Of a stretch of DNA of 64,000 nt, positions 26,125 through 61,590 are shown in pieces (position 1 is the stretch's first letter; each line of letters starts with the position of its first letter). The position numbers and the translations under genes were made by a program. Below the pieces are notes generated by a model that made no database searches, was not told the DNA's origin, and worked only from the letters and a program-made list of their open reading frames with translations. The stretch is from an uncultured Mycoplasmatota bacterium (lineage in GTDB: Bacteria; Bacillota_I; Bacilli_A; RF39; UBA660). Location: NCBI GenBank assembly GCA_946402735.1, contig CAMIXH010000001.1, forward strand, positions 303,175 to 367,174. Direction: 5' to 3'.

Positions 26125-27480
26125 ATGAAAAAAATAATAATATGGGTATTGTCATCAATACTAGTAGTTTTATTATGTTTAATAGTAGTTCTTTTTCTAT
26201 ATAAAAAAGGACTTTTATTTGATGCTCCAATTCCTGATATTAAAGAGATATATGTAGATGATGATAACTTTGTAAATATATATTTTGAAATAAAAGCAAA
26301 TGGTGTTACTGATAAAATATATTTTTTAAATAAAAAAGATTCTAGTACACCATCTGTTGATGATAATTCATGGACTTTAGTCAATGGTAACACTGCTAAG
26401 TATTTTTTAGATGATGCATACTATTCATTTCTTAAAAATGAAGATGATGTCATAATTAATGTTAAAGAAACGGAATTACTTGGTAGACTATCCGAATTTA
26501 CTTTAAGTAAAAATACTATATATTTAGCACCAAAAGGAACATATACCCCTACTCTTACATATCAATCAGTAGGTTATATTGATGATAATCCTATCTGGTA
26601 TAGTGATGATGAAAAAGTTGCTAAAGTAGATCAAAAAGGTAAAATAACAGCAGTAAAAGCAGGTAAAACTAAAGTACATGTTAAATTATCAGGAAGAGAT
26701 ATTTATGCTGATGTTATTGTTACTAATTTAATAACTGTAAAACCTAAAAAATATGATAGAAAGAAAAAATATTTATCTTGTGGACAATATACTAAAGCAG
26801 AAAATGATTTGCTTGATAAAATATTAAAAGATAGAGTTAAAGATGCTGGATATAAGACAAGAGCCGGTGTTGTAGAAGCAGGAAGATTCATTACTTTAGA
26901 ATTCCCATATAAAATTAAATATTTCAGTGAAAATGGAAGATTATCTGGTAATAAAGTAGATGGTGAAGGAAGGTATTATCATAAAGGATTATATTTAGAC
27001 GAAAGTAGATATGAATCTATAACTAAGAGTCACTCTGGACCAGCAACATGGGGATGTCCTATTTATTCAATACCTGCTAAAGGAAGAACACCAAATGGAC
27101 TAGATTGTTCTGGATTTATTACATGGATACTATATAATGGCGGTTTTGATGTTAAAGATATTGGAGCTGGTATTAGCGGTAGTTTAGATCTAACAGATTA
27201 TGGTAAGAGAACTAAACTAACTAAAGAAGTAGTTTCTTCAGGTAAGATTAAAGTTGGTGATTTACTAGCATCAGGTGGATATAATGGTGGTCATATAGCT
27301 TTGCTTGTTGGTGAAGATAAAGATTATTATTATGTAGCGGAAAGTTTATGGACACCACCTAATGTAGCAGCACTAATGATGCAATATCCAAAAAGTACCT
27401 TCCATAAGAGTTTTAATTATGTTATGCTAATGGATAATTACTACAAAGATGATGGTAATTTAACTAATATGTGGTACTAG
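26125..27480 (+). CDS. Membrane-anchored BIG2 + NlpC/P60 endopeptidase, copy 1
   Basis: 451 residues. A single membrane helix (about 5-25) is followed by an extracellular region, a bacterial Ig-like BIG2 domain (about 125-203; NPIWYSDDEKVAKVDQKGKITAVKAGKTKV) and an NlpC/P60 domain. Catalytic Cys328 lies in GLDCSGFITW and His390 in NGGHIALLVG. Between the two domains all three copies share a stretch with VDGEGRYYHKGLYLDESR and TWGCxxYSIP, not part of standard NlpC/P60. NlpC/P60 enzymes cut D-Glu-diamino acid bonds in wall peptides. First of three tandem paralogues, with a leaderless promoter. Confidence 0.88.
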   Translation: MKKIIIWVLSSILVVLLCLIVVLFLYKKGLLFDAPIPDIKEIYVDDDNFVNIYFEIKANGVTDKIYFLNKKDSSTPSVDDNSWTLVNGNTAKYFLDDAYYSFLKNEDDVIINVKETELLGRLSEFTLSKNTIYLAPKGTYTPTLTYQSVGYIDDNPIWYSDDEKVAKVDQKGKITAVKAGKTKVHVKLSGRDIYADVIVTNLITVKPKKYDRKKKYLSCGQYTKAENDLLDKILKDRVKDAGYKTRAGVVEAGRFITLEFPYKIKYFSENGRLSGNKVDGEGRYYHKGLYLDESRYESITKSHSGPATWGCPIYSIPAKGRTPNGLDCSGFITWILYNGGFDVKDIGAGISGSLDLTDYGKRTKLTKEVVSSGKIKVGDLLASGGYNGGHIALLVGEDKDYYYVAESLWTPPNVAALMMQYPKSTFHKSFNYVMLMDNYYKDDGNLTNMWY

Positions 27481-27488
27481 AGGTTTTT

Positions 27489-29009
27489 ATGAAATCTAAA
27501 AAAAGGCAAAATAAAAAGAAAACTATTGCTAAAAGAAAACAACAAAAAGTATTATCTTCTAAAAGAAAAAAAACAACTAAAAAGAAAACTACTACTAAAA
27601 AAATAACTACGCCTAAAAAAGTAAGTGTAGTTAAAAAAGAAGAAGTTAGTAAAAAGAAAGATATTAATTATAAAGGAATAGCATTATTTATATTTGTATT
27701 GCTTATAAATACTTTAGCTATAATAGGAGTTAATTCTTTAAAAAAGGAACCAATCTCCCCTATTCTTTCAGTCGATAAGGTTTATTTAGAAAATAGTTCT
27801 AAAGTTGTAGTTGATTATTCTATACTTAATCCTTCTGAAGATGATAAAGTATATTGTTTTTATACTACAAAAGATAATTTAATAGATCTTCCAGATTCTG
27901 GGTGGGTATTATCAGAAAATAATAGATGTGAATATACTTTAGATAAAAACGTTTATTATACCTATGTTAAATTAAATGAAGATAGTATTATTTTTGTAAA
28001 AGAAACAGCTGAGTTCGGAATAGTAAATAATTTAAAAATAAATAAATCTAAATATTATTTAGCATTAAAAGATACATTAAATCTTAAAGTTACTTATGAC
28101 ACTTTAGGAAATGTTAGTGATCCAGTTGAATGGACTTCATCAGATAATAGTATTGCTAGTGTTGTTGATGGAAAAGTAACTGCTAAAAAAGATGGTACTG
28201 CTATAATAACAGCAAGTATTAAAGATAAAAGTATTAGTAGCACAATTACTGTAACTAGTTTAATAACTAAAAGACCTAAGAATGGATTTGATTTTAATAA
28301 AAAGAATCTAGGATGTAATATATATACAAAAAAACAAAATGATTTACTTGATACAATACTTAAATTTAAAGTAAATGAAGTTAGTTATAAAACAAGGGCA
28401 GCTGTTGTAGAAACAGCAAGATTCTTAACACTAGATTTCCCTTATAGAATTAATTATTTCTATGAAAATGGAAGACTTACTAAAAAAGGAAAAATTGATG
28501 GCGAAGGAAGATATTATCATAAAGGATTATACCTAGATGAAAGTAGATATTCATCTATTGGTAAAAGCAGAAAAGGACCTGGTACTTGGGGTTGTAAGGT
28601 CTACTCTATTCCAGATCATAAGAAATCTAGAAATGGACTAGATTGTTCAGGTTTTGTAACATGGGCACTACTTAATGGAGGATTTAATCCAGGAGATATA
28701 GGAGCTGGTATTACTAAAGTAAAAGATTTAACTGATTTAGGAGTAAAGAAAAAGATTACCTCTACTCTAGCTAAAGGTAATACTATTAAAGTTGGTGACT
28801 TACTTCATAATAGATGGTCAGGTGGGCACATAGCAATAATTGTAGGAATAGACTCTAAATACTACTATGTAGCACAAGCTGTATGGTTTGATGAAGTTGG
28901 TGTTATAATTAATAAATATAAGAAAGCTGATTTAAAGAATAAATTTAGAGAAGTAATCTTAATGGATAAATATTATAAAAAGGATGGAAATTTAACTAAT
29001 ATGTGGTGA
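27489..29009 (+). CDS. Membrane-anchored BIG2 + NlpC/P60 endopeptidase, copy 2
   Basis: 506 residues from ATG 27489 (AGAGG upstream, 8 bases after the previous stop); a GTG at 27471 inside copy 1 is less likely. It differs from copy 1 by a long, strongly basic cytoplasmic tail (about residues 1-58, mostly Lys, Arg and Thr) before the membrane helix (about 60-80). The BIG2 domain (NPVEWTSSDNSIASVVDGKVTAKKDGT; actually opening DPVEWTSSD) and the NlpC/P60 domain follow, with Cys in GLDCSGFVTW and His in SGGHIAIIVG. The Lys-rich tail could bind nucleic acid or acidic lipids; this is a guess. Overlaps copy 3's region at the stop. Confidence 0.88.
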   Translation: MKSKKRQNKKKTIAKRKQQKVLSSKRKKTTKKKTTTKKITTPKKVSVVKKEEVSKKKDINYKGIALFIFVLLINTLAIIGVNSLKKEPISPILSVDKVYLENSSKVVVDYSILNPSEDDKVYCFYTTKDNLIDLPDSGWVLSENNRCEYTLDKNVYYTYVKLNEDSIIFVKETAEFGIVNNLKINKSKYYLALKDTLNLKVTYDTLGNVSDPVEWTSSDNSIASVVDGKVTAKKDGTAIITASIKDKSISSTITVTSLITKRPKNGFDFNKKNLGCNIYTKKQNDLLDTILKFKVNEVSYKTRAAVVETARFLTLDFPYRINYFYENGRLTKKGKIDGEGRYYHKGLYLDESRYSSIGKSRKGPGTWGCKVYSIPDHKKSRNGLDCSGFVTWALLNGGFNPGDIGAGITKVKDLTDLGVKKKITSTLAKGNTIKVGDLLHNRWSGGHIAIIVGIDSKYYYVAQAVWFDEVGVIINKYKKADLKNKFREVILMDKYYKKDGNLTNMW

Positions 29010-29017
29010 AATATAAT

Positions 29018-30322
29018 ATGAAAAGAAAGAAAAAGAGACTTAAAAGAAAATTTAGAAGATTATTTAAACTTATATTATTTATAATTGTCATTATATTTGT
29101 TTTTGTCATATATAAAAAAATAACTAAACAATATATTATTTCTATTGAGTATAATGATAATTTAATAGTTACTTTGATAGATAATGATGATTTATATTGT
29201 ATTTTATCTGATGAAGAACCTGATATAAATGATAATAAATGGATCAAATCTAAAGATAATATATGTACTTTAAAATATCAAAATGAAAAAAATATATATA
29301 TTAAAAATGATGAAAAAATAGTATATTCTTCTTCAAATGATTTATATTATGAATTACAAGATAATAAAGAAATATATTTAGCCAATAGAGATAAATATTA
29401 TTTATTTAAATATTCTTTAGGTAATTTAAATAAACTAAATATAACTATTGAAGATAAAAATATTGTTGAATATCAAGATGGTTATTTAAATGCAGTTGAT
29501 AATGGTAATACTAAGGTCACTATTAAACATGGAGAAGAAAATATTATATTAGATACTACAGTTACTAATTTAATAACTAAAAGACCTAAAAATTATGATT
29601 TTAATAAAGAAAATCTAAAATGTGAAAAGTATACTAAAGAAGAAAATGATTTAATAGATAAAATATTAGCTCAAAAAGTAAATGAAGTTGGAAATAAAAC
29701 AAGAGCAGCTGTTGTAGAAGCGGCTAGATTCTTAACATTAGATTTTCCATATAGAATTAATTATTTCTATGAAAATGGTAGAGTTTCTACTAATAAAGTT
29801 GATGGCGAAGGAAGATATTATCATAAAGGATTATATCTTGATGAAAGTAGATTTGATGATATAACAGGTTCCTCTACTTTAAATAATAAAGGTACTTGGG
29901 GATGTAGTATATATAGTATTCCTATAAAAGATTATGATAATAATGGCCTTGATTGTTCTGGATTTGTTTCTTGGGCAATATTAAATGGTGGATATAATCC
30001 AGGAGATATAGGAGCTGGATACATAAAAGCAAAAGATTTACCTAGTCTTGGTACTAAAAAGACAATAACTGATGAAATAGCAACAAATGGAACTATTAAA
30101 GTTGGAGACTTACTTCATAATGAAAGAAATGGTGGTCATATAGCTATAATCGTCGGTATTGACAAAGAATACTATTATGTAGCACAAGCAGTATGGTTTG
30201 ATGAAGTTGGTGTTGTTATAACTAAATATAAATTAGATGAATTAGATAGTGAATTTCCAGATGTAATATTGATGGATAAATATTATAAAAATGATGGTAA
30301 ATTAACTAATATGTGGTACTAA
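29018..30322 (+). CDS. Membrane-anchored NlpC/P60 endopeptidase, copy 3
   Basis: 434 residues from ATG 29018, with GGTGA 8 bases upstream that overlaps the stop of copy 2; in-frame GTGs at 29003 and 29006 are less likely. A basic start, a membrane helix (about 16-33) and an extracellular part follow. The BIG2 region is degenerate (the SSD-type core is lost), while the NlpC/P60 domain is intact: Cys in GLDCSGFVSW and His in NGGHIAIIVG. The catalytic half is closer to copy 2 than to copy 1 (shared NEVGNKTRAAVVE-type and VAQAVWFDEVGV stretches), so duplication was stepwise. Ends in a strong terminator. Confidence 0.87.
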   Translation: MKRKKKRLKRKFRRLFKLILFIIVIIFVFVIYKKITKQYIISIEYNDNLIVTLIDNDDLYCILSDEEPDINDNKWIKSKDNICTLKYQNEKNIYIKNDEKIVYSSSNDLYYELQDNKEIYLANRDKYYLFKYSLGNLNKLNITIEDKNIVEYQDGYLNAVDNGNTKVTIKHGEENIILDTTVTNLITKRPKNYDFNKENLKCEKYTKEENDLIDKILAQKVNEVGNKTRAAVVEAARFLTLDFPYRINYFYENGRVSTNKVDGEGRYYHKGLYLDESRFDDITGSSTLNNKGTWGCSIYSIPIKDYDNNGLDCSGFVSWAILNGGYNPGDIGAGYIKAKDLPSLGTKKTITDEIATNGTIKVGDLLHNERNGGHIAIIVGIDKEYYYVAQAVWFDEVGVVITKYKLDELDSEFPDVILMDKYYKNDGKLTNMWY

Positions 30323-31855: not shown

Positions 31856-31880
31856 AGTATCACCATAAAAATTATAACAT

Positions 31881-31912
31881 AAAAAAAGAATAGATTATAC
31901 TATTCTATTTTT
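31881..31912 (-). terminator. Intrinsic terminator of the VWA-XpaC-TelA-AAA operon
   Basis: On the minus strand AGAATAG and CTATTCT pair around TATAAT and are followed by seven T, directly after the AAA+ gene stop. Confidence 0.85.
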
Positions 31913-33477
31913 TAAATTAAATTTTCAGTACTAATATCTTCTTTAGTAATAGTTCTTAGTACTTTCTTTTGTTTCTTGTCTTTAGTATTACTTGCATGTT
32001 TAATAATAGATTTTTCATATATATTTCTTACAAATCTAGCATTACCAAAGTTTTCTTTATATCTATTTTCTTCAATAATTCTTTCAAGTTCTTTAATTGC
32101 ATCTTCTGTAACTTCAAAACCAGCTTTTTTAACCATACCTTCAAATATTTTGATTAACTCTTCAGTAGTATAATCATCAAATTCTAAAGTATAACCGATT
32201 CTAGAAGTAATACCAGAGTTAGCATTTAAGAATGCTTGCATCTCTTTTGTATAACCTGCAAATATACATACTAGGTTATCTCTATTATTTTCCATTTCTG
32301 CTATTAGGGTTCCAACTGCATCATCATTATATGAGTTATTTTTATCACCAAGCATATAAGCTTCATCTACAAATAAAACTCCACCTTTAGCTTTGTTAAT
32401 AACTTCAGCTGTTTTAATAGCAGTTTGTCCTACATATTCAGCAATTAAATCTTTACTAGTAACTTCTACTAATTTGTTTTCTTTAATATAATGTAGATTA
32501 TATAAAATACCACAAAGTAATCTTGCTATAGTAGTTTTACCAGTACCAGGATTACCTAAAAATATCATATGCAAGTTAACATTACCTATTTTTAAGTCTC
32601 CATCAGTTTTCTCTCTTAATTTCATTAGATCAACTAATTCATATAAAGATTTTTTAACTTTTTCAAGACCTACTAAATCATTTAGATCTTTAAATATTTC
32701 TTCAGTAGTTTTTTCTTCTTTTAATACTGGAATATCATTATGAAGTAATATATAGTTAATTAAATTATCTCTATATGTTTCACTATCTAAATCACTCTTA
32801 TCATAAGTTGCTGTAATGTAATCTAATAATTTAACTTTATTTTCTTCTTCTAATTCAGTATTATCTAATATTTCACTATATATTTCAGATTTTTCTTCTC
32901 TTTCTTCAACTAAATTGAATACAAAGTATTTATCCTTTAAATCTTTATTATAAGTAAATATATTATTTAATTCTTTTTCTTCTTTATATACTAGAACACT
33001 AATATTTTTATTATTAGATATAGCATCTTCTAAAGTATGCATTAATTTTTGTTTATCATTAATACCTTCTAATTCAATACCATCTAGATCTTTTAATAAA
33101 ACTATTCCATTTTCTTTATATGTTTTAGTAATTACTTCATCAGTTAAACTATAAAATGCTAATTCTACTAATTTATTATTATTTAAATACTTACTATGAT
33201 TAGAAGCACTTTTTAATATATCTGTAATAGTATTAATAGTTTTATCAGTTTTACTAGATATAGTTATATTAAAAGGAATATATCTTTTATCATTAGTGTA
33301 ATTAAATATATAATTAACTATCTTTCTTAATAATTCTTTAGATTCATCGCTTAAATGTAACTTATTAATTTCAGTTTCATAATCAATATTGATTACTTCA
33401 TTATTAGATTGTTTTGTTTCTACAAGAGGTGTTCCAAAGAAATCTTTATAAATATCTTGTAAGTATTCTTTTTCCAT
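31912..33477 (-). CDS. AAA+ ATPase of the CbbX/SpoVK type with a degenerate N-terminal AAA domain
   Basis: 521 residues. The C-terminal AAA+ domain (about 260-510) is intact: Walker A GNPGTGKTT (308-316), Walker B GGVLFVDEAYML, sensor segment VCIFAGY and ARFVRNIYE near the end, as in CbbX/SpoVK ATPases. Residues about 60-215 look like a second, inactive AAA fold: SSKTDKTINT stands where Walker A should be, and GIVLLKDLDGIEL where Walker B should be. The later KYFVFNLVEEREEKSEIYSEIL parallels GYTLEFDDYTTEELIKIFEGM of the active domain. Last gene of a five-gene operon, 9 bases after telA. Probably remodels a partner protein of the operon; that is inference. Confidence 0.85.
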   Translation of the reverse strand: MEKEYLQDIYKDFFGTPLVETKQSNNEVINIDYETEINKLHLSDESKELLRKIVNYIFNYTNDKRYIPFNITISSKTDKTINTITDILKSASNHSKYLNNNKLVELAFYSLTDEVITKTYKENGIVLLKDLDGIELEGINDKQKLMHTLEDAISNNKNISVLVYKEEKELNNIFTYNKDLKDKYFVFNLVEEREEKSEIYSEILDNTELEEENKVKLLDYITATYDKSDLDSETYRDNLINYILLHNDIPVLKEEKTTEEIFKDLNDLVGLEKVKKSLYELVDLMKLREKTDGDLKIGNVNLHMIFLGNPGTGKTTIARLLCGILYNLHYIKENKLVEVTSKDLIAEYVGQTAIKTAEVINKAKGGVLFVDEAYMLGDKNNSYNDDAVGTLIAEMENNRDNLVCIFAGYTKEMQAFLNANSGITSRIGYTLEFDDYTTEELIKIFEGMVKKAGFEVTEDAIKELERIIEENRYKENFGNARFVRNIYEKSIIKHASNTKDKKQKKVLRTITKEDISTENLI

Positions 33478-33486
33478 ATTAAATAC

Positions 33487-34638
33487 CTACTTCTTTACAT
33501 TGATTTCTAATAACTTACTCTTTAATTCTTTTTCTAATGTTTCTAATTCTTTTTCGCTTTCTTGTCTCTTTACACGACCTTGTTCATGAATTTCAACAAC
33601 TTTATTTAATGTTTCAATTATATCTGCATTTGTTTTTCTTAATGTTTCAATATCTACAATAGCTCTTTCAGATTCTTTAGCAATTTCAATTGAACCTTGT
33701 TTTAAAGTTTCACTATTCTTCTTAAGCATATCATTAGTAAGTTCACTAACTGCTTTTTGACTTTCAAGTGCTACTTTAGCTCTATTAATTCCAAGAGCAA
33801 GAACCATTTGATTCTTCCATAGAGGAATTGTATTTGTAATTGAACTTTGAATCTTTTCAACTAGTTCTGCTTCGTTACTTTGAAGTAATCTAATTTGTGG
33901 TGCCATTTGAATAGAAATTAATCTTGTAGTCTTTAAGTCATAGATTTTCTTTTCAAATCTATTAATAATATTTCTCATATCATTAACTTTTTGAATATCT
34001 AATTGTTCTCCAGATTCTTGAGCTTTCTTTTCTAATTCTGGAAGTGTTACATTTTTAAGTTCTTCAATTTTCTTTTCACCAGCAATAATGTATAGAGATA
34101 CTTCTTTAAAGTATTCTAGGTTCTTTTCATACATAGTATCGAATGTAGCAATATCTCTAATCATATTCATTCTTTGTTTTTCAAGACTTCCTTCAATAGA
34201 ATCTACATTCTTTTCTACTTTGTTATATCTAGCTATTAATTTATTGATTTCTTTCTTAACACTTGAGAACATTTTCTCAATAACGTTCATATGTTGAGAA
34301 TCAACTACTGCTTTATCAAATGATTTTAACTCAGCTACTAATTTAGCAAGGCTATCTCCTACTTCACCAGTATCTTTAGTTCTAACTCCTTCTAAAACTT
34401 CATCTGAGAATTTAGAAATTTTATTTTGAGCAGCAGATCCATATTCTAATATTTGAGTATTATCATATACATCTATTTTTTGATTAAATTCTTCAATAGC
34501 ATCTTTCTCTTCTTGAGTAAGTAAATCATAATTTAATGAGTCTTCAATTTTTTCTTCAGTTACTTTTTCTTCAGTAGTAACTAATTTTTCAACCTTTTTA
34601 TCCTCTTTGTTATAACTAACTTTTAATTCATTCATCAT
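33487..34638 (-). CDS. TelA/KlaA-family toxic anion resistance protein
   Basis: 383 residues, typical length. Almost entirely alpha-helical and charged, with long coiled-coil stretches (about 90-250). The region KIYDLKTTRLISIQMAPQIRLLQSNEAELVEKIQSSITNTIPLWKNQMVLAL is a recognisable TelA signature. TelA proteins were linked to tellurite and other toxic anion resistance, but their mechanism is unknown. No membrane segment. The first of two adjacent ATGs has GGAGG 9 bases upstream. TelA with XpaC recalls xpaC-yaaN of B. subtilis. Fourth gene of the operon. Confidence 0.9.
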   Translation of the reverse strand: MMNELKVSYNKEDKKVEKLVTTEEKVTEEKIEDSLNYDLLTQEEKDAIEEFNQKIDVYDNTQILEYGSAAQNKISKFSDEVLEGVRTKDTGEVGDSLAKLVAELKSFDKAVVDSQHMNVIEKMFSSVKKEINKLIARYNKVEKNVDSIEGSLEKQRMNMIRDIATFDTMYEKNLEYFKEVSLYIIAGEKKIEELKNVTLPELEKKAQESGEQLDIQKVNDMRNIINRFEKKIYDLKTTRLISIQMAPQIRLLQSNEAELVEKIQSSITNTIPLWKNQMVLALGINRAKVALESQKAVSELTNDMLKKNSETLKQGSIEIAKESERAIVDIETLRKTNADIIETLNKVVEIHEQGRVKRQESEKELETLEKELKSKLLEINVKK

Positions 34639-34653
34639 TATTTAATTCCTCCC

Positions 34654-35850
34654 TTATTTTAAATAATCGATTAATTTATTATAAGTATCCATCTTTAAAC
34701 TTGTAACAGTACTTGTAATTGATTTTGGAAGTGCAAGTCCTAGAGAAGATACATCATAAACTCCACCGGTAATACCAGTTCTAAATCCATATTTATTAAA
34801 TGCTATTTGTTGAATTTCTTCATCATCAAAAGCAGCATATAATTTTTTACCTTCTTCTGTAAATATTGTTAAGCAGTGAGAGTTCCAAATAGTTGGAGAT
34901 GGATATAAAACTCTTATATCTTCTTTTACTTCATTAAATCCTTTTGGATTAGCATTAGCAAAATCAATCATACTCTTTTCATAATCAACTATCATAGGTT
35001 CTCCACCCATACCAGTTTTTAAATATCTTTCAAATAAGTCAGCTGGTGTGTTATTCATATAACCAGATTTTAAATAGAATTTTTTAAGTTTTGCCAAGTT
35101 TGTATTTAAGTCACTATTATTAATATTACCACCACTTAATATTGAAAGTAAAAGTCCATAGTATGTTGCTCCAGGAGAAGATGTAACTGGGTCAGTTGAT
35201 GCTATATTGATATTACCATATAATTCAGTAAGACCAATATCACTCCATTTCTTACCAGCTAATATATAATTCATTAATTTTTCCATACCAGTGATATAGT
35301 AAACACCATCTTCACTCTTAGTAACTATTTTCTCTTTCATTAGAGCGTCTACTACTTTACCCCAGCTATAGATTACTATTGGTGTATTTAGAGTTAATCC
35401 ACCATCTAAAACAGTATATCTATCAGCTTCTTTGGCTTCTTTATTTGGTTGCAATTTATAGTAGTCATAGAATCTTTGGTCAGAAGTAAATAATACATCA
35501 TATTTACTTACTCCAGAAGTATGAATTGTAATATCTTCACCATTATTTATTTTATCCATAATAGTTTGATCTCCAAATCCAACTCTTTCTCTTATTAATG
35601 GCCAAAGAACTGTTTTACCATTACTCCATGAATCATATACAACATTTAATTTGTATTTCTTTCTTAGTATTTCATTTACTCTTTCATCAGCAAGGAAATC
35701 TTCTTTTCCTCCACCAGTTGCTACATATATAGTAGTTAAGTTTTTATCTACTATGTTTATTCCATCTTCACTTGAGAATATTTTATATGCTACAACTCCT
35801 AAAATGATAACTACAAATATTACAATACCTATTATTTGTTTTTTATTCAT
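34654..35850 (-). CDS. Membrane-anchored solute-binding-like protein
   Basis: 398 residues. One N-terminal membrane helix (about 5-24) with no lipobox, then a periplasmic-binding-protein-like fold outside the cell. Segments such as STDPVTSSPGATYYGLLL and GGEPMIVDYEKSMIDF resemble type II oxyanion-binding proteins (molybdate, sulfate or phosphate types). No permease or ATPase partner for an ABC importer is nearby, so it may act as a sensor or structural part. AAGGAGG lies 6 bases before the ATG; the start overlaps the xpaC end by 8 bases. Third gene of the operon. Confidence 0.78.
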   Translation of the reverse strand: MNKKQIIGIVIFVVIILGVVAYKIFSSEDGINIVDKNLTTIYVATGGGKEDFLADERVNEILRKKYKLNVVYDSWSNGKTVLWPLIRERVGFGDQTIMDKINNGEDITIHTSGVSKYDVLFTSDQRFYDYYKLQPNKEAKEADRYTVLDGGLTLNTPIVIYSWGKVVDALMKEKIVTKSEDGVYYITGMEKLMNYILAGKKWSDIGLTELYGNINIASTDPVTSSPGATYYGLLLSILSGGNINNSDLNTNLAKLKKFYLKSGYMNNTPADLFERYLKTGMGGEPMIVDYEKSMIDFANANPKGFNEVKEDIRVLYPSPTIWNSHCLTIFTEEGKKLYAAFDDEEIQQIAFNKYGFRTGITGGVYDVSSLGLALPKSITSTVTSLKMDTYNKLIDYLK

Positions 35851-36466
35851 TTTTATCCTCCTTAATTAATTCTATATCATTAAATCCATCACTTTTCAAG
35901 ATATTATTTAATACTTTCATATCTGTTTCTACATTTTCAATATCAGAACTATATAAATTATTAAGTATCTTTTTAAATGATCTATTTATTTCACTTAATG
36001 ATTCTTTAGCTTTTTTATAAAATTCTTTAACTTCCTTACTTGATAAATTTTGATTTTCAATTTCATCATATTTATTTATTATACCAACTGTTATTGGTAA
36101 ATAGTAAGTAAAGAATTTTTCAGTTCTTTTAATTTTCTTTTTATCTTTTTCTACTGAATCAATTATCTTTGTTGTTGTATCACCTATTTCATTTAAATAT
36201 AATTTTAAATCAGTATCATCAATTTTACTAATTTTACTAATTATAAATTTAACTTTATTTCTAGCATCTTTTATTACTTGCTCTATGTTTTTTTCATCTA
36301 CTTTATCAAATACCAGTAGTGGTGCACTACTCATAAGTAACTCTCCACCTACGAAAGCACCCGCTCCAACAAGTATAGCTGGTATTAATGGAATACCAAG
36401 TGTTAAATATGAAAGTGTAAATAAACCTCCACCAATAATACCAGATATTATTTCTTTGTTTTTCAT
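35843..36466 (-). CDS. XpaC-family membrane protein
   Basis: 207 residues from ATG 36466. An in-frame ATG at 36502 lies inside the upstream gene; the later start sits 1 base after the upstream stop and suits translational coupling. Two hydrophobic stretches at about residues 5-45 (IISGIIGGGLFTLSYLTLGIPLIPAILVGAGAFVGGELL) are followed by a charged helical region, the pattern of XpaC (named for 5-bromo-4-chloroindolyl phosphate hydrolysis in Bacillus). The biochemical role is unknown. XpaC next to TelA is conserved in Firmicutes. Second gene of the operon. Confidence 0.8.
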   Translation of the reverse strand: MKNKEIISGIIGGGLFTLSYLTLGIPLIPAILVGAGAFVGGELLMSSAPLLVFDKVDEKNIEQVIKDARNKVKFIISKISKIDDTDLKLYLNEIGDTTTKIIDSVEKDKKKIKRTEKFFTYYLPITVGIINKYDEIENQNLSSKEVKEFYKKAKESLSEINRSFKKILNNLYSSDIENVETDMKVLNNILKSDGFNDIELIKEDKNE

Positions 36467-36467
36467 T

Positions 36468-38096
36468 TTAATTGTAGCCTCTAACTTTCTTAAATGCTTC
36501 AACTAAACTTGTTTTTCCATCAAATACTTTTCCATTAGTTAAATTAGAAATTTGTTTTAATTCATATTCATCAGCATTACCAAATGTAATACTATAAATT
36601 GGAATTTCTCTATTTATGTCTCTATATTTATTTTGTAAAGATATATAAGTTCCTACATTAGCCATTCCATCAGTCATTAATATTACAGATGTTACATATT
36701 TATTTGAATCTTCTTTTGATAAGATATCTAATGCTTTTATTGCTGCTGGATACAAAGCAGTTGATCCATTAGGTTGTAAATTTTCAATTTTTTGTAAAAC
36801 ATCTTCTTTAGTTAAATTACTTGATGTTGACCACTGAGCTAAAATATCACTTCCAAAAGGAATAACATCTATTTTATCTCTTTCGCTAAAACTAATTAAT
36901 ATATCTGCTTCAGTTAATATATATTTCATAGCATTTCTAAGTTCTTTAATACCATTTCCATACATACTACCTGAATAATCTAAGCAAAATACTACATGTA
37001 CTGGTTTTCTTAGTTCAATTTGATATAAAGTTAAAGCTTCTTTTATAACTGCCATGCTTGGATATTTAATAGGAGTTATATAAGTAGTTGTATTAATACC
37101 CCAATTAGGATTGAATACATCTTTTGGTGCATTTTCATTAATACCACCATACCAAGTTCTTCTACCATTTTGTAGTAAAACAGTTTGTCCTTCATCACTT
37201 AGTAAGTATTCTTGTAATTTTAAGAAGTTTTCTTTTTTAGCTTCATTCTTATTATCTATATATACAAATGGACTATCAGATATTGCAACTCCATCTACTG
37301 GATATATTGCATATAATGTTTCTTTTCCTTCTTTTTCTAATTGTTTATTAATATTGATAATTGATGATTCATAAGTAAATGCAGCATCATAATCTCCATT
37401 AATAAATGATGTTTCTAAGAAATCTTCATCTCCACTTGTTCTTGTGATTCCTTCAAAGAATTTCTTTAACTCTTTCTTTAAGTTTTCATTTTTTAGATCA
37501 CTTGATTTTAATACTTCAGGACTTCCTGCTAAGTTATATAAAACTTCTAAATAAGCAGAAGCACCACTATTAGTAAGAGTTGGATTACCCATACTAAACT
37601 TTAATTCCCCAGTTTTAACTTTATTTAGAATATCTTTAGTATATATTTTCTTTCCAACAAATCCTAGTTCTTTTGCTTTAGATTCTTTAATACCGAATAC
37701 TACAGGAGTAATACTAGTACTTCTTAAATTGCTAGTCTTAACAGAAGAATCAAGCATACTTAACCAAATTGAATTAGAAATTAATACAGCATCATACTTT
37801 TCACCAGAATTAAGTTTATCTACTACGCTTAATGTATCAGTATAAGTAATAGTAATATCTATATTATTCTTCTTGGCAAATTCTTTTATTGATCCATCTA
37901 ATATTTTATTTTCACTACTTGAAATAATACTAAATGTTTTATCATTATAAGTAGGTTTAGAATAATCTTCACCATCATCAATAAAAGAGTTTACTATTCC
38001 TTCTATTATATTTCTACCAATATTAAAAGCAATCAATAATCCAATAATAATAAAGAAAACTTTTACTCCAGTTATACCACTATTATTCTTTTTCAT
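36468..38096 (-). CDS. Solute-binding-like domain fused to a von Willebrand factor A domain
   Basis: 542 residues. Membrane helix at about 11-28, then an extracellular type II binding-protein domain (about 50-345; NPTLTNSGASAYLEVLYNLAG and DYDAAFTYESSI are typical), then a VWA domain (about 364-540). The MIDAS metal site is complete: DYSGS at 373, Thr in NGSTALYPA and Asp in MTDGMAN, so it should bind a divalent metal and a partner protein. First gene of the operon, with GGATGGG-like sequence before the ATG (weak ribosome site, AAGGATGGG). Fusion of a ligand-binding domain with VWA points to sensing or assembly at the cell surface. Confidence 0.87.
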   Translation of the reverse strand: MKKNNSGITGVKVFFIIIGLLIAFNIGRNIIEGIVNSFIDDGEDYSKPTYNDKTFSIISSSENKILDGSIKEFAKKNNIDITITYTDTLSVVDKLNSGEKYDAVLISNSIWLSMLDSSVKTSNLRSTSITPVVFGIKESKAKELGFVGKKIYTKDILNKVKTGELKFSMGNPTLTNSGASAYLEVLYNLAGSPEVLKSSDLKNENLKKELKKFFEGITRTSGDEDFLETSFINGDYDAAFTYESSIININKQLEKEGKETLYAIYPVDGVAISDSPFVYIDNKNEAKKENFLKLQEYLLSDEGQTVLLQNGRRTWYGGINENAPKDVFNPNWGINTTTYITPIKYPSMAVIKEALTLYQIELRKPVHVVFCLDYSGSMYGNGIKELRNAMKYILTEADILISFSERDKIDVIPFGSDILAQWSTSSNLTKEDVLQKIENLQPNGSTALYPAAIKALDILSKEDSNKYVTSVILMTDGMANVGTYISLQNKYRDINREIPIYSITFGNADEYELKQISNLTNGKVFDGKTSLVEAFKKVRGYN

Positions 38097-38163
38097 TTTC
38101 CCATCCTTTCTTAAATTATTATAACCATAAAAATTATATCATTTTTAATATATCATTTCAATT

Positions 38164-43993: not shown

Positions 43994-44020
43994 AAAAGAA
44001 ACTTAAATGCTTCTTTTTTT
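43992..44020. terminator. A/T-rich bidirectional terminator
   Basis: AAAAAAGAA and TTCTTTTTTT pair around a 10-base loop between the convergent FNT and ABC genes. Confidence 0.55.
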
Positions 44021-47000
44021 AATCTGTTCTTAGCGCTTCAACTGGATTTTGATTAGCAGCACTCTTAGATGGTATTAATCCTCCAATTAATGTAAGAAGA
44101 ATACTTATTAATACTAATGCAATTATTTCTGTTAGTTTTAAATATGCTGTTAATGTTGGAATACCAGTTTCATTTCTTAGTATTATATTTGCTGGTATAA
44201 ATAATAATTCTGATATTACTATTCCAAGTACTCCAGCAAATGTTCCAATTATACCAGTTTCTGCATTAAATACTTGAGATATATTCCTTTTTGATGCTCC
44301 AATTGCTCTTAAAACACCAATTTCTTTTTTACGTTCTAGAACACTAATATATGTAATAACACCAATCATAATTGAAGAAACAACAAGTGATATAGCTACA
44401 AATGCTATTAATACATAACTAATTACATTAACTATAGTAGTAACAGATGATAACATAGTTCCAATTAAATCAGTATATGTAATTGTTTTATCATATTCTT
44501 CTAACCTAGTCATTTTTTCATTATAATCATCCATTAATTCCATTACTAGTTGTTTTGATTCAAAATTCTTAGGATAAATATCTATTTCATATACATCTTC
44601 ATCTGCTGCATATCCAAAGTATTTCATATTATTATCATAAGAACTTTCACTATTATTAATCATTGCATTAATAAATGATTTAATTTGTTCTTCACTTAAA
44701 TTCATTTTAAAAGCAGCACCAAATTTTTTACTATCAACTGACATAGCTTTTGGTAAACTATTCATTGCTTTTATAATAATATCTTTTATATTATCAGCTA
44801 AATCATTAGTTGCATTTTTAAGTATTTTTTCAAATTGTTTACTTACACTTTTTGACGATTCTTTTTCATGTTTTTTAATTTGTGCTTTTAAATCTTCTAC
44901 ATCAACACAATCATATAAACCGTCACTAATTAATTTCTTAGTACTACTTAATTTTAAATATGATAAGAATGAATCTTTTAATTTAGTTGGATCAGGTTTA
45001 TTATGTTGTTTTGCATATTTGATGTATCCTTCTTCTAGTAAAGAAGCTAATTCTATAATTTCACTTTGATTTAAACTTATATTATTAATAATTTTAGTGG
45101 TTAATCTACTAATTTCTTGATTAATTAAATTACGAGCTACATTGGATGATAAATATTCTGATAAATACTCATTAAATCTAGTAGGATCAGTATAATTATT
45201 TTCAATAGCCCAATCACTATAACCAGACATTACTCTTGTAATAATGCCTCTTATATCTTCACTAGAAATAACTTCTTCTGCACTCTCTTCTATTTTATCT
45301 TCTAAGAAATCATTAATTATCTTTCTTCCTTCAGCACTTTCTAGGAATTCAGAGAACGCATCAGATATATGAAGATAATCAGTAGTTGGATCATGAGAAG
45401 CATACTCTAAGTAATCATTAGCTACATCATTAATTAATTTATTAAACTTTTCTTCATCAACTTTAATATCTAAATTCTGTAAATATTCAATATCTACATC
45501 ATTTAAATTCATATTTTTTAGATATTTTTGAAAATCCATATTTTTTATAGATGATGTATCTATTTTAAACTTAGATTGATCTATTTTAAATGCACTTCCA
45601 ATTTTATTTTGATCAATAGTGAATAATTTAGTAAAATCTATATCATTTGTTTTCTTTTCACCAAATGGACCATTAGTTAGTACATTAGTATCAGGTGTTT
45701 CTTTTTGTGCTTGAACAACATCACTTTCACCTGCTATCTCTCTTAAACTTTCAATTAATTCATCAGTATACCAAATTCCTTCTCTTAGATTTGGTGCTTT
45801 ATTATCTTCATTTGGTTCTGCAATACCAACTATTTTAAAACTTGTACTATTATTATCTAATATTTTTTCTACAAATTCAGTATCATTTGATGCATCAATA
45901 TATACTTTGTTTTTACTATCATATTTGTATAATATAGAACTACTTAGTACTTTAAATTCACGTCCAATAATATCATCTGAATTCCATACTCTTTCATCTT
46001 CTACAACACTAGATTTCTTATTATTACCAAAATCTTTTACCATTTGTTCTAAATCTTTATTATCTCTAAGACCCATAGAATAGAATATAAAATCAGATAC
46101 TCCTCCTCCGGGATTGGTAATTAATAGTGCTTCGTTTTTATTAGTAGGCCAATTACCATACATTAAATGATATTTTTCTTTATATAATCTTTCATTACTT
46201 GGTAACTTATCAAATGCATTAATTGAATAGTTACTAAATAAAATATTATCAGCACTTAGTCCCAGTGAACTAAATGCTTCATTAGGATTAACTTTAATAT
46301 ATTTATTTTCATAATCAGTATATATAATTGGAGTAATATTATATTTATATTCTACTGAAACAGAATAATCAAATACTTTTATACCATCTGTTTCAAAATA
46401 ATTCTTTAAGGATGATAAATCATTTTGATTAACTAGTGAAAGCATATTTTCAAGTGTTTTAAGTTCGCTTATTTCTCCACTATTTTCACTAGCTTTATAA
46501 AAGTCAGTATTCATAGTAGTTGTCAAAGAGAAACTACTTGTATTAATCTGTATTGGATAAGAAATCATTGTTTCTTCTTCAGTATCATTTATAAATTTAT
46601 TTACTCCATTTGATAGTCCCAATATTAAAGCTATACCAATTATTCCAATAGAACCAGCAAAAGCAACCATGATAGTACGTCTTCTTTTATTTTTTAAATT
46701 ATTAAAACTAAGACCAATACTTGTTGCAAAATTCATTGATGCTTTACCAAAGTTTTTATGTATACCAAATGTCTTTCTTCTAACAACATATTTATCAGAA
46801 TCACTAATTATTTTTCCATCATATAATTTTACTATTCTTGTAGAATATTTTTGTGCTAAATCAGGGTTATGTGTAACCATAATAACAAGTCTATCTTTAG
46901 CAACTTCTTTTAATAAATCTAGTACTTGTACACTTGTTTCAGAATCAAGTGCTCCAGTTGGTTCATCAGCTAAAACTATTTTTGGATTGTTAACAAGTGC

Positions 47001-47462
47001 TCTTGCAATAGCAACTCTTTGCATTTGACCACCAGATAATTGATTAGGTCTTTTATGAGCATGTTCTTTTAAACCCACTTTTTCTAACGCTTCTAGAGCT
47101 AATTTCTTTCTTTCTGATTTACTTATACCAGATATAGTTAATGCAAGTTCTACATTGGATAAAACTGATTGATGAGATATTAAATTATAACTTTGAAATA
47201 CAAATCCAATAGTATGATTTCTATAAGAATCCCAATCTTCATTTTTATACTTAACTGTAGAAACTCCATCTATTAATAATTCACCACTATCATATTGATC
47301 TAGACCACCAATAATATTAAGTAGTGTTGATTTTCCACTTCCTGAAGGACCCAAAATAGAGACAAATTCATTGTCTCTAAAATTAAGCGTTACATCATCT
47401 AACGCTTTTTGCACTAAATCACCAGTTTTATAATTTTTACAAATATTTTTTAACTGAAGCAT
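44019..47462 (-). CDS. MacB-like ABC transporter, fused ATPase and permease
   Basis: 1147 residues. The N-terminal ATPase (about 1-225) has Walker A GPSGSGKSTLLN, signature LSGGQMQRVAIARAL and Walker B IVLADEPTGALDS, of the LolD/MacB group. A first membrane helix follows at about 265, then a very long extracellular part (about 290-960) rich in helices and Asp/Asn/Ser. The C-terminal FtsX-type permease has three helices (about 1000-1140; VLERKKEIGVLRAIGASKRNISQVFNAE is typical). Such proteins do not move small solutes across the membrane but transmit force to the outside, for example in peptide export, resistance or control of wall hydrolases. The many wall hydrolases here make the last role worth testing. 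Confidence 0.9.
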   Translation of the reverse strand: MLQLKNICKNYKTGDLVQKALDDVTLNFRDNEFVSILGPSGSGKSTLLNIIGGLDQYDSGELLIDGVSTVKYKNEDWDSYRNHTIGFVFQSYNLISHQSVLSNVELALTISGISKSERKKLALEALEKVGLKEHAHKRPNQLSGGQMQRVAIARALVNNPKIVLADEPTGALDSETSVQVLDLLKEVAKDRLVIMVTHNPDLAQKYSTRIVKLYDGKIISDSDKYVVRRKTFGIHKNFGKASMNFATSIGLSFNNLKNKRRRTIMVAFAGSIGIIGIALILGLSNGVNKFINDTEEETMISYPIQINTSSFSLTTTMNTDFYKASENSGEISELKTLENMLSLVNQNDLSSLKNYFETDGIKVFDYSVSVEYKYNITPIIYTDYENKYIKVNPNEAFSSLGLSADNILFSNYSINAFDKLPSNERLYKEKYHLMYGNWPTNKNEALLITNPGGGVSDFIFYSMGLRDNKDLEQMVKDFGNNKKSSVVEDERVWNSDDIIGREFKVLSSSILYKYDSKNKVYIDASNDTEFVEKILDNNSTSFKIVGIAEPNEDNKAPNLREGIWYTDELIESLREIAGESDVVQAQKETPDTNVLTNGPFGEKKTNDIDFTKLFTIDQNKIGSAFKIDQSKFKIDTSSIKNMDFQKYLKNMNLNDVDIEYLQNLDIKVDEEKFNKLINDVANDYLEYASHDPTTDYLHISDAFSEFLESAEGRKIINDFLEDKIEESAEEVISSEDIRGIITRVMSGYSDWAIENNYTDPTRFNEYLSEYLSSNVARNLINQEISRLTTKIINNISLNQSEIIELASLLEEGYIKYAKQHNKPDPTKLKDSFLSYLKLSSTKKLISDGLYDCVDVEDLKAQIKKHEKESSKSVSKQFEKILKNATNDLADNIKDIIIKAMNSLPKAMSVDSKKFGAAFKMNLSEEQIKSFINAMINNSESSYDNNMKYFGYAADEDVYEIDIYPKNFESKQLVMELMDDYNEKMTRLEEYDKTITYTDLIGTMLSSVTTIVNVISYVLIAFVAISLVVSSIMIGVITYISVLERKKEIGVLRAIGASKRNISQVFNAETGIIGTFAGVLGIVISELLFIPANIILRNETGIPTLTAYLKLTEIIALVLISILLTLIGGLIPSKSAANQNPVEALRTD

Positions 47463-61461: not shown

Positions 61462-61590
61462 GAAAGAAAAATACCTAAGGAAACTTAGGTATTCAAGATT
61501 CCTCATTGATCTAGCATTACCACCTAACTTAAAAGGTTGGTGTGACTTCATAGGGCTAGTCCCTCAGTCACTCTTAATAAGGTAATATAA
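61462..61590 (-). ncRNA. SAM-I (S-box) riboswitch with terminator, controls metK
   Basis: On the minus strand the S-box core is clear: AAGAGTGACTGAGGGACTAG, CCCTATGAAGTCAC, ACCAACC and GGTGGTAATGC. P1 pairs CCTTATT (61582-61576) with AATGAGG (61507-61501). A 9-bp terminator, ATACCTAAG/CTTAGGTAT (61492-61471) with T-run, follows. GAGGAA of the P1 3' strand can instead pair with TTCCTT of the terminator, giving an antiterminator. So high SAM should stop metK transcription. Confidence 0.94.

Follow-up and report, generated by a model that had tools for sequence, protein, structure and literature searches.

A co-inherited five-gene operon joins TelA and XpaC to solute-binding and VWA domains in a candidate trans-envelope stress-response system

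We analysed a stretch of 64,000 nucleotides (hereafter the window; assembly GCA_946402735.1, contig CAMIXH010000001.1, positions 303,175 to 367,174 of the forward strand) from an uncultured Mycoplasmatota gut bacterium, and found that five genes at 31912-38096 form one co-inherited unit. In operon order, the open reading frames (ORFs) of this cassette encode a fusion of a solute-binding protein (SBP) with a VWA domain, XpaC, a second SBP, TelA and a tandem AAA+ ATPase. We propose, with a probability of about one half, that the cassette operates as a single trans-envelope stress-response machine in which ligand-binding heads on the outside would govern a scaffold at the inner membrane face, with the ATPase as its remodeller.

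All five ORFs lie on the minus strand where an initial annotation, made from the letters of the window, had placed an operon, and the tight packing that it described corresponds to intergenic gaps of 1, -8, 15 and 9 bases in gene order. A promoter-like site on the same strand (38133..38161; TTGAAA-17-TATAAT, with a TG ahead of the -10 element) ends 37 bases upstream of the first start codon, and is the best site of the region at 11 of 12 consensus bases, a judgement made on consensus match only. The single terminator of the annotation is an AT-rich hairpin followed by a U-run, also on the minus strand, 3' of gene 5 (31868..31911). Its folding energy of -9.1 kcal/mol (z -3.54) was equalled in none of 200 shuffles, although its G+C content is lower than the terminator scan requires.

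The order of the set recurs at dozens of loci, far beyond chance. A scan of species genomes for TelA gave 80 loci with flanks, to which six related regions were added, and 33 of the resulting 86 loci carry all five genes in identical order. Genes 1-4 are present at 18 further loci, some of which are ended by contig edges, several more loci are partial, and a family survey contributed 15 additional full sets, partly repeat assemblies. These locus counts are approximate because some loci represent one assembly under two names and nearly all carriers are metagenome-assembled genomes. When the distances of the five proteins were compared two by two, each of the ten pairs showed a correlation (r 0.51-0.87) that none of 500 permutations reached. 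The flanks, by comparison, vary from locus to locus, with no recurrent family in more than five of 52 loci. The initial annotation had taken the five genes for one functional unit while allowing that they might not be kept together outside this genome; they are kept together elsewhere and are inherited as one unit.

The distribution of the cassette is patchy. The second SBP was found in 33 of the 291 genomes of the window's family (about 11%), and in 3 of 392 genomes sampled across the phylum, all three of which belong to that same family; an XpaC gene is present at nearly all loci bearing this SBP. Even a single genus can include a species with all five genes, another with a three-gene form and a third with no cassette. 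Between family genomes, TGT identity (64-71%) equals TelA identity (68-71%), a result that favours neither vertical descent nor horizontal transfer, and the M32 flank gene had no match in the congeners searched for an empty-site comparison. We considered carriage by a mobile element and rejected it, given the absence of a common flank family and the occurrence of the second SBP in no phage record and in one IMG/VR contig only.

Both SBPs are predicted to be anchored proteins of the outer face. Gene 1 (36468..38096) encodes an N-terminal membrane anchor, an SBP_bac_11 domain (PF13531) and a VWA domain (PF00092). AlphaFold2 models of the products of genes 1 and 3, built on alignments of 21-22 homologues, reached a mean predicted local distance difference test score (pLDDT) of 87.8 and 85.6, respectively. 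In the gene 1 model, residues 51-366 form a periplasmic binding protein (PBP) type II domain, after which the VWA domain follows. This PBP domain is structurally nearest to sulfate-binding proteins (Z 27), with strong similarity also to thiamine, sugar-phosphate and polyamine binding proteins; in searches of its sequence against solved structures, the sole detectable binding-protein relatives were HptA and ModA, both weak (E 0.006-0.2). The VWA part of the model (structural match at Z 22) resembles the VWA domains of adhesin and matrix proteins in fold, and its metal ion-dependent adhesion site (MIDAS) is complete, as had been read from the sequence: none of the 21 aligned homologues departs from D373, S375, S377, T446 and D476.

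Gene 3 (34654..35850) matched no Pfam family, and its sequence is strongly conserved among homologues. Its model adopts a two-lobe, FutA/FbpA-like PBP type II fold (FutA1, Z 19.9, root-mean-square deviation 3.4 over 283 residues), so the identification of a second binding protein, originally made by eye, stands despite the lack of a Pfam family, and the cassette holds two solute-binding folds. Homology between the two is weak by profile comparison, and each protein has a single N-terminal hydrophobic segment by hydropathy. Given that polyamine, sugar-phosphate, thiamine and iron binding proteins all score nearly level with the best fold matches, no particular ligand can be read from the fold.

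The remaining three genes encode the putative inner part of the system. Gene 2 (35843..36466), which starts with ATG, belongs to the XpaC family (PF10112, 87.3 bits); hydropathy and alignment point to an N-terminal hydrophobic hairpin and a helical domain predicted inside. Gene 4 (33487..34638) matches TelA (PF05816) over its full length at 402.6 bits and is the only TelA of the window's genome. Gene 5 (31912..33477) carries an AAA domain (PF00004) with intact Walker motifs in its C-terminal copy, followed by AAA_lid_6. Its best NCBIfam models are SpoVK (239 bits), CbbX (219) and EccA (190), all below the cut-offs of the models, and no MoxR model is among those listed. When relatives with partial P-loops were added, the N-terminal half aligned with the C-terminal half by profile comparison (probability 87%, E 4e-6); the protein is therefore a tandem AAA, the double ATPase of the initial annotation, with a degenerate first copy.

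Topology predictions divide these products between the two faces of the membrane. The anchor of gene 1 is preceded by positive and followed by acidic residues, and neither TelA nor the ATPase has a membrane segment by hydropathy. Applied to these segments, the positive-inside rule would put the SBP and VWA domains on the outside, and TelA and the ATPase inside. Since the anchor of gene 1 is predicted to have its N terminus inside and the ATPase lacks a membrane segment, the VWA domain and the ATPase are predicted to lie on opposite sides of the membrane. The earlier proposal that outer domains sense and that XpaC, TelA and the ATPase act from within gains support from this predicted arrangement.

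Variants of the set reveal which of its parts can be exchanged. At four loci (L115, L160, L161 and L162), genes 1-3 are followed by a Band_7_1 (SPFH) protein of 316-324 amino acids that replaces TelA and the ATPase and is absent from the window cassette, and at L152 a Zn-ribbon membrane protein stands in for gene 1. In other Bacilli families (L209, L214, L215, L217 and L218), genes for TelA, an XpaC-like protein and a tandem AAA are clustered without SBPs. Diverged sets comprising the second SBP, TelA, the SBP-VWA fusion and a hairpin protein of about 210 amino acids occur on Variovorax, Sphaerotilus and Nonomuraea replicons, and Deinococcus has a diverged set that lacks TelA. The hairpin proteins of the distant sets (206-226 amino acids) align with XpaC (hhalign 55%, E 1e-4) and share its hairpin, so that by sequence they may be diverged XpaC proteins. 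From these variants, the set looks modular, with an outer and membrane core and an exchangeable inner part. We tentatively suggest, with clear reservations, that it represents a class of modular sensing machines spanning the envelope, not described before and present in at least four phyla, in which a fixed core of SBP-VWA fusion, second SBP and XpaC-like hairpin protein would be combined with an inner scaffold of TelA, with or without the tandem AAA, or of an SPFH/Band-7 protein.

Several related loci have distinctive surroundings. In Variovorax sp. SRS16 (L107, 14202-32878), the distant TelA/SBP-VWA set has a Wadjet operon on one side and, on the other, a pair consisting of a flotillin and a YqiJ-type OB-fold protein. 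The Sphaerotilus set (L101, 5885-15634) has as same-strand neighbours a PhoX phosphatase on one flank and an ExeM/NucH nuclease on the other, which might hint at phosphate as the ligand there. A different arrangement, with a membrane protein of about 248 amino acids, a distinct SBP-VWA fusion (562 amino acids) and TelA, and with no recognised XpaC or second SBP, occurs at L065 (7394-11158) as well as at L064, L066 and L068. An insertion of five genes on the opposite strand (about 327, 128, 115, 120 and 372 amino acids) separates TelA from the AAA gene, at the same point, at L020, L036 and L170; none of the three that were tested matched Pfam. TelA at L055 adjoins an opposite-strand gerA-type spore germination receptor operon (PF05504, PF03845 and PF03323), and at L050 and L057 it adjoins opposite-strand genes whose sizes and order resemble those of that operon, which may connect these loci with hosts that sporulate.

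We infer that the five products form a complex across the envelope and that signalling within it runs inwards. The two outward-facing, membrane-anchored PBP type II domains would bind a ligand or a product of envelope damage, and the VWA domain of gene 1 could use its MIDAS for a metal-dependent contact, be it with the second SBP, with the cell wall or with a partner that has bound ligand. XpaC, with its N-terminal hairpin spanning the membrane, might then relay the outer state to TelA, which would assemble as a scaffold on the inner membrane face. The AAA+ ATPase would remodel or disassemble TelA or XpaC, by analogy with Vps4-like ATPases acting on ESCRT-III/PspA, and the outcome would be a membrane stabilized under envelope stress imposed by cationic peptides, wall-active compounds or toxic oxyanions.

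Several observations weigh against this model. A sequence search for a solved TelA structure found none, so scaffold formation by TelA is a step that we infer, and the role of the cassette as a whole is read from its genes, predicted folds and homology. The phenotypes known for XpaC and TelA stem from lone pairs in other species. Furthermore, the second SBP is missing from about 89% of the family genomes, which indicates that the function of the cassette is dispensable, and the AAA gene is missing from many otherwise intact sets, which indicates that the ATPase is not essential to the system.

The fold of the SBPs raises the question of whether they are ordinary importer subunits served by an ABC permease encoded elsewhere, as PBP type II folds usually are. 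The window genome (G000) has one BPD_transp_1 permease (PF00528), whose amino-acid-type operon also encodes an SBP and an ATPase to serve it. Two other carriers, G051 (91% complete) and G057 (97%), have no PF00528 permease, against 14 of 14 control genomes that were positive; permease types outside PF00528 were not sought. Moreover, one SBP is fused to a VWA domain and both have plain membrane anchors. These permease counts largely refute the importer reading, which we rejected as highly improbable, and they agree with the initial annotation, which had described binding proteins without an importer permease and had allowed that a partner elsewhere might be found; none was, in the genomes searched. 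A role in the sensing of or resistance to toxic oxyanions (tellurite, selenite or arsenate-like), with the SBPs binding the anion and TelA conferring resistance, would be in keeping with the Pfam name of TelA, with the sulfate-binding proteins as nearest structural neighbours and weak ModA similarity of the gene 1 SBP part, and with the effect of Listeria telA on tellurite and nisin tolerance (PMC12791056). The set contains no detoxifying enzyme, however, the 12 carrier genomes showed no TerD above cut-off, and other SBP families score nearly as high as the sulfate-binding proteins; we therefore regard this role as improbable.

Defence against phages or plasmids is another unlikely reading; here the outer domains would recognise adsorption or the entry of a genome, and the inner part would respond by blocking or killing. 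Patchy distribution, the coexistence of five-gene, three-gene and cassette-free species in one genus and the exchange of parts (Band-7 in place of TelA and AAA, a Zn-ribbon membrane protein in place of gene 1) would suit a defence system, as would the position of the Variovorax relative, about 2 kb from the Wadjet operon and beside the flotillin/YqiJ pair, and the listing of TelA as a sub-membrane component of Ter systems, for which phage exclusion has been proposed (PMC7824862). PADLOC nevertheless returned no real match, only generic AAA matches below 29 bits; no nuclease, toxin or nucleotide-signal gene belongs to the set, the neighbours in the window are housekeeping or envelope genes, and none of the phage records searched contained the second SBP. 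The strict conservation of the MIDAS and the adhesin- and matrix-like VWA fold instead raise a surface adhesion or wall-assembly module, whose VWA and SBP domains would hold a wall polymer or protein that XpaC, TelA and the ATPase assemble or recycle. Large surface proteins do lie near the window copy, but no surface-protein gene is retained beside the cassette at other loci and the set shows neither a sortase motif nor a repeat region, and we give this module little credence. Of the response roles that the initial annotation had entertained, envelope stress is favoured by homology and by the Band-7 swap; anti-phage and toxic-anion roles are less probable.

Elsewhere in the window, Big_2 and/or NlpC/P60-like regions occur in three proteins, secreted or anchored, that are encoded in tandem on the plus strand (26125-30322); the second and third are close paralogues. 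A single protein of 1147 amino acids (44019-47462) combines an N-terminal ABC ATPase with a C-terminal FtsX-like permease domain, and an S-adenosylmethionine (SAM) riboswitch lies on the minus strand at 61500-61583 (64.6 bits).

TelA and XpaC are widespread families with links to envelope stress and to nisin and tellurite, and we know of no mechanism for either. A full-text literature search found no publication describing the full set, with a 2012 survey of Ter systems that possibly contains lists of TelA neighbourhoods lying outside its coverage, and the set seems not to have been studied as a whole before. Its individual parts do recall known systems. The HptA-type sensing SBP, a PBP type II protein tied to signalling, is similar to the SBP part of gene 1 (6lkg, structural Z 24.7, with weak sequence similarity); HptA, though, is described as working with a two-component system, whereas the cassette contains neither kinase nor regulator. 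MoxR-VWA ternary systems likewise pair a VWA protein with an AAA+ ATPase (PMC7159879), and the initial annotation had drawn this analogy. We rejected it on ATPase family and predicted topology, since the cassette ATPase is SpoVK/CbbX/EccA-like and is predicted to lie across the membrane from the VWA domain.

Ter systems also have TelA, listed as a sub-membrane part, and a VWA protein among their membrane-associated components, with phage exclusion as a proposed function (PMC7824862). The VWA domain of the cassette, in contrast, is fused to an SBP and predicted to be extracellular, and the 12 carrier genomes had no TerD (PF02342) above cut-off, control genomes being positive. Next to the cassette, where TerB, TerC or signal-synthesis enzymes would mark a Ter system, no gene family recurs at more than five of 52 loci, in a comparison of flanks not aimed at TerB and TerC. 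The XpaC-TelA pair is related by family, being genome-adjacent and corresponding to genes 2 and 4, and like it the cassette has a TelA and an XpaC, at the scores given above, in one operon. In B. subtilis, xpaC-yaaN is regulated by envelope stress and belongs to the core sigma-W regulon (PMC3498285). The Listeria pair lmo1966-lmo1967 is induced by bacteriocin (PMC12791056), and a telA mutant is reported in that source to have raised sensitivity to nisin and tellurite. Such pairs form operons without the SBP-VWA fusion, second SBP or tandem AAA, whereas the cassette places the second SBP between XpaC and TelA.

The phage shock protein (PSP) machinery, as PspA-YdjGHI or PspA with a double AAA, offers a mechanical parallel to the cassette as proposed: an inner-membrane scaffold, an SPFH partner (found in one cassette variant) and an AAA protein whose N-terminal copy is inactive, as can occur with PspA (PMC11237479). 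The Band-7 swap is significant because YdjI, an SPFH protein of B. subtilis, is required to localize the ESCRT-III-like PspA at the membrane (PMC8581546). The sensing heads of the cassette are nevertheless SBP and VWA domains, not Psp or Lia proteins, and PspA/IM30 (PF04012) was found in none of 12 carrier genomes, against 9 of 14 control genomes. Given that carriers lack both PspA and TerD, these markers place the cassette outside PSP and classical Ter systems alike, and it appears to be a distinct system with a similar mode of action. By joining TelA and XpaC to outward ligand-binding and VWA domains, and by exchanging TelA for an SPFH protein, the cassette gives rise to a concrete and testable model, in which TelA would be an ESCRT/PspA-like membrane scaffold governed by extracellular sensors and an AAA remodeller.

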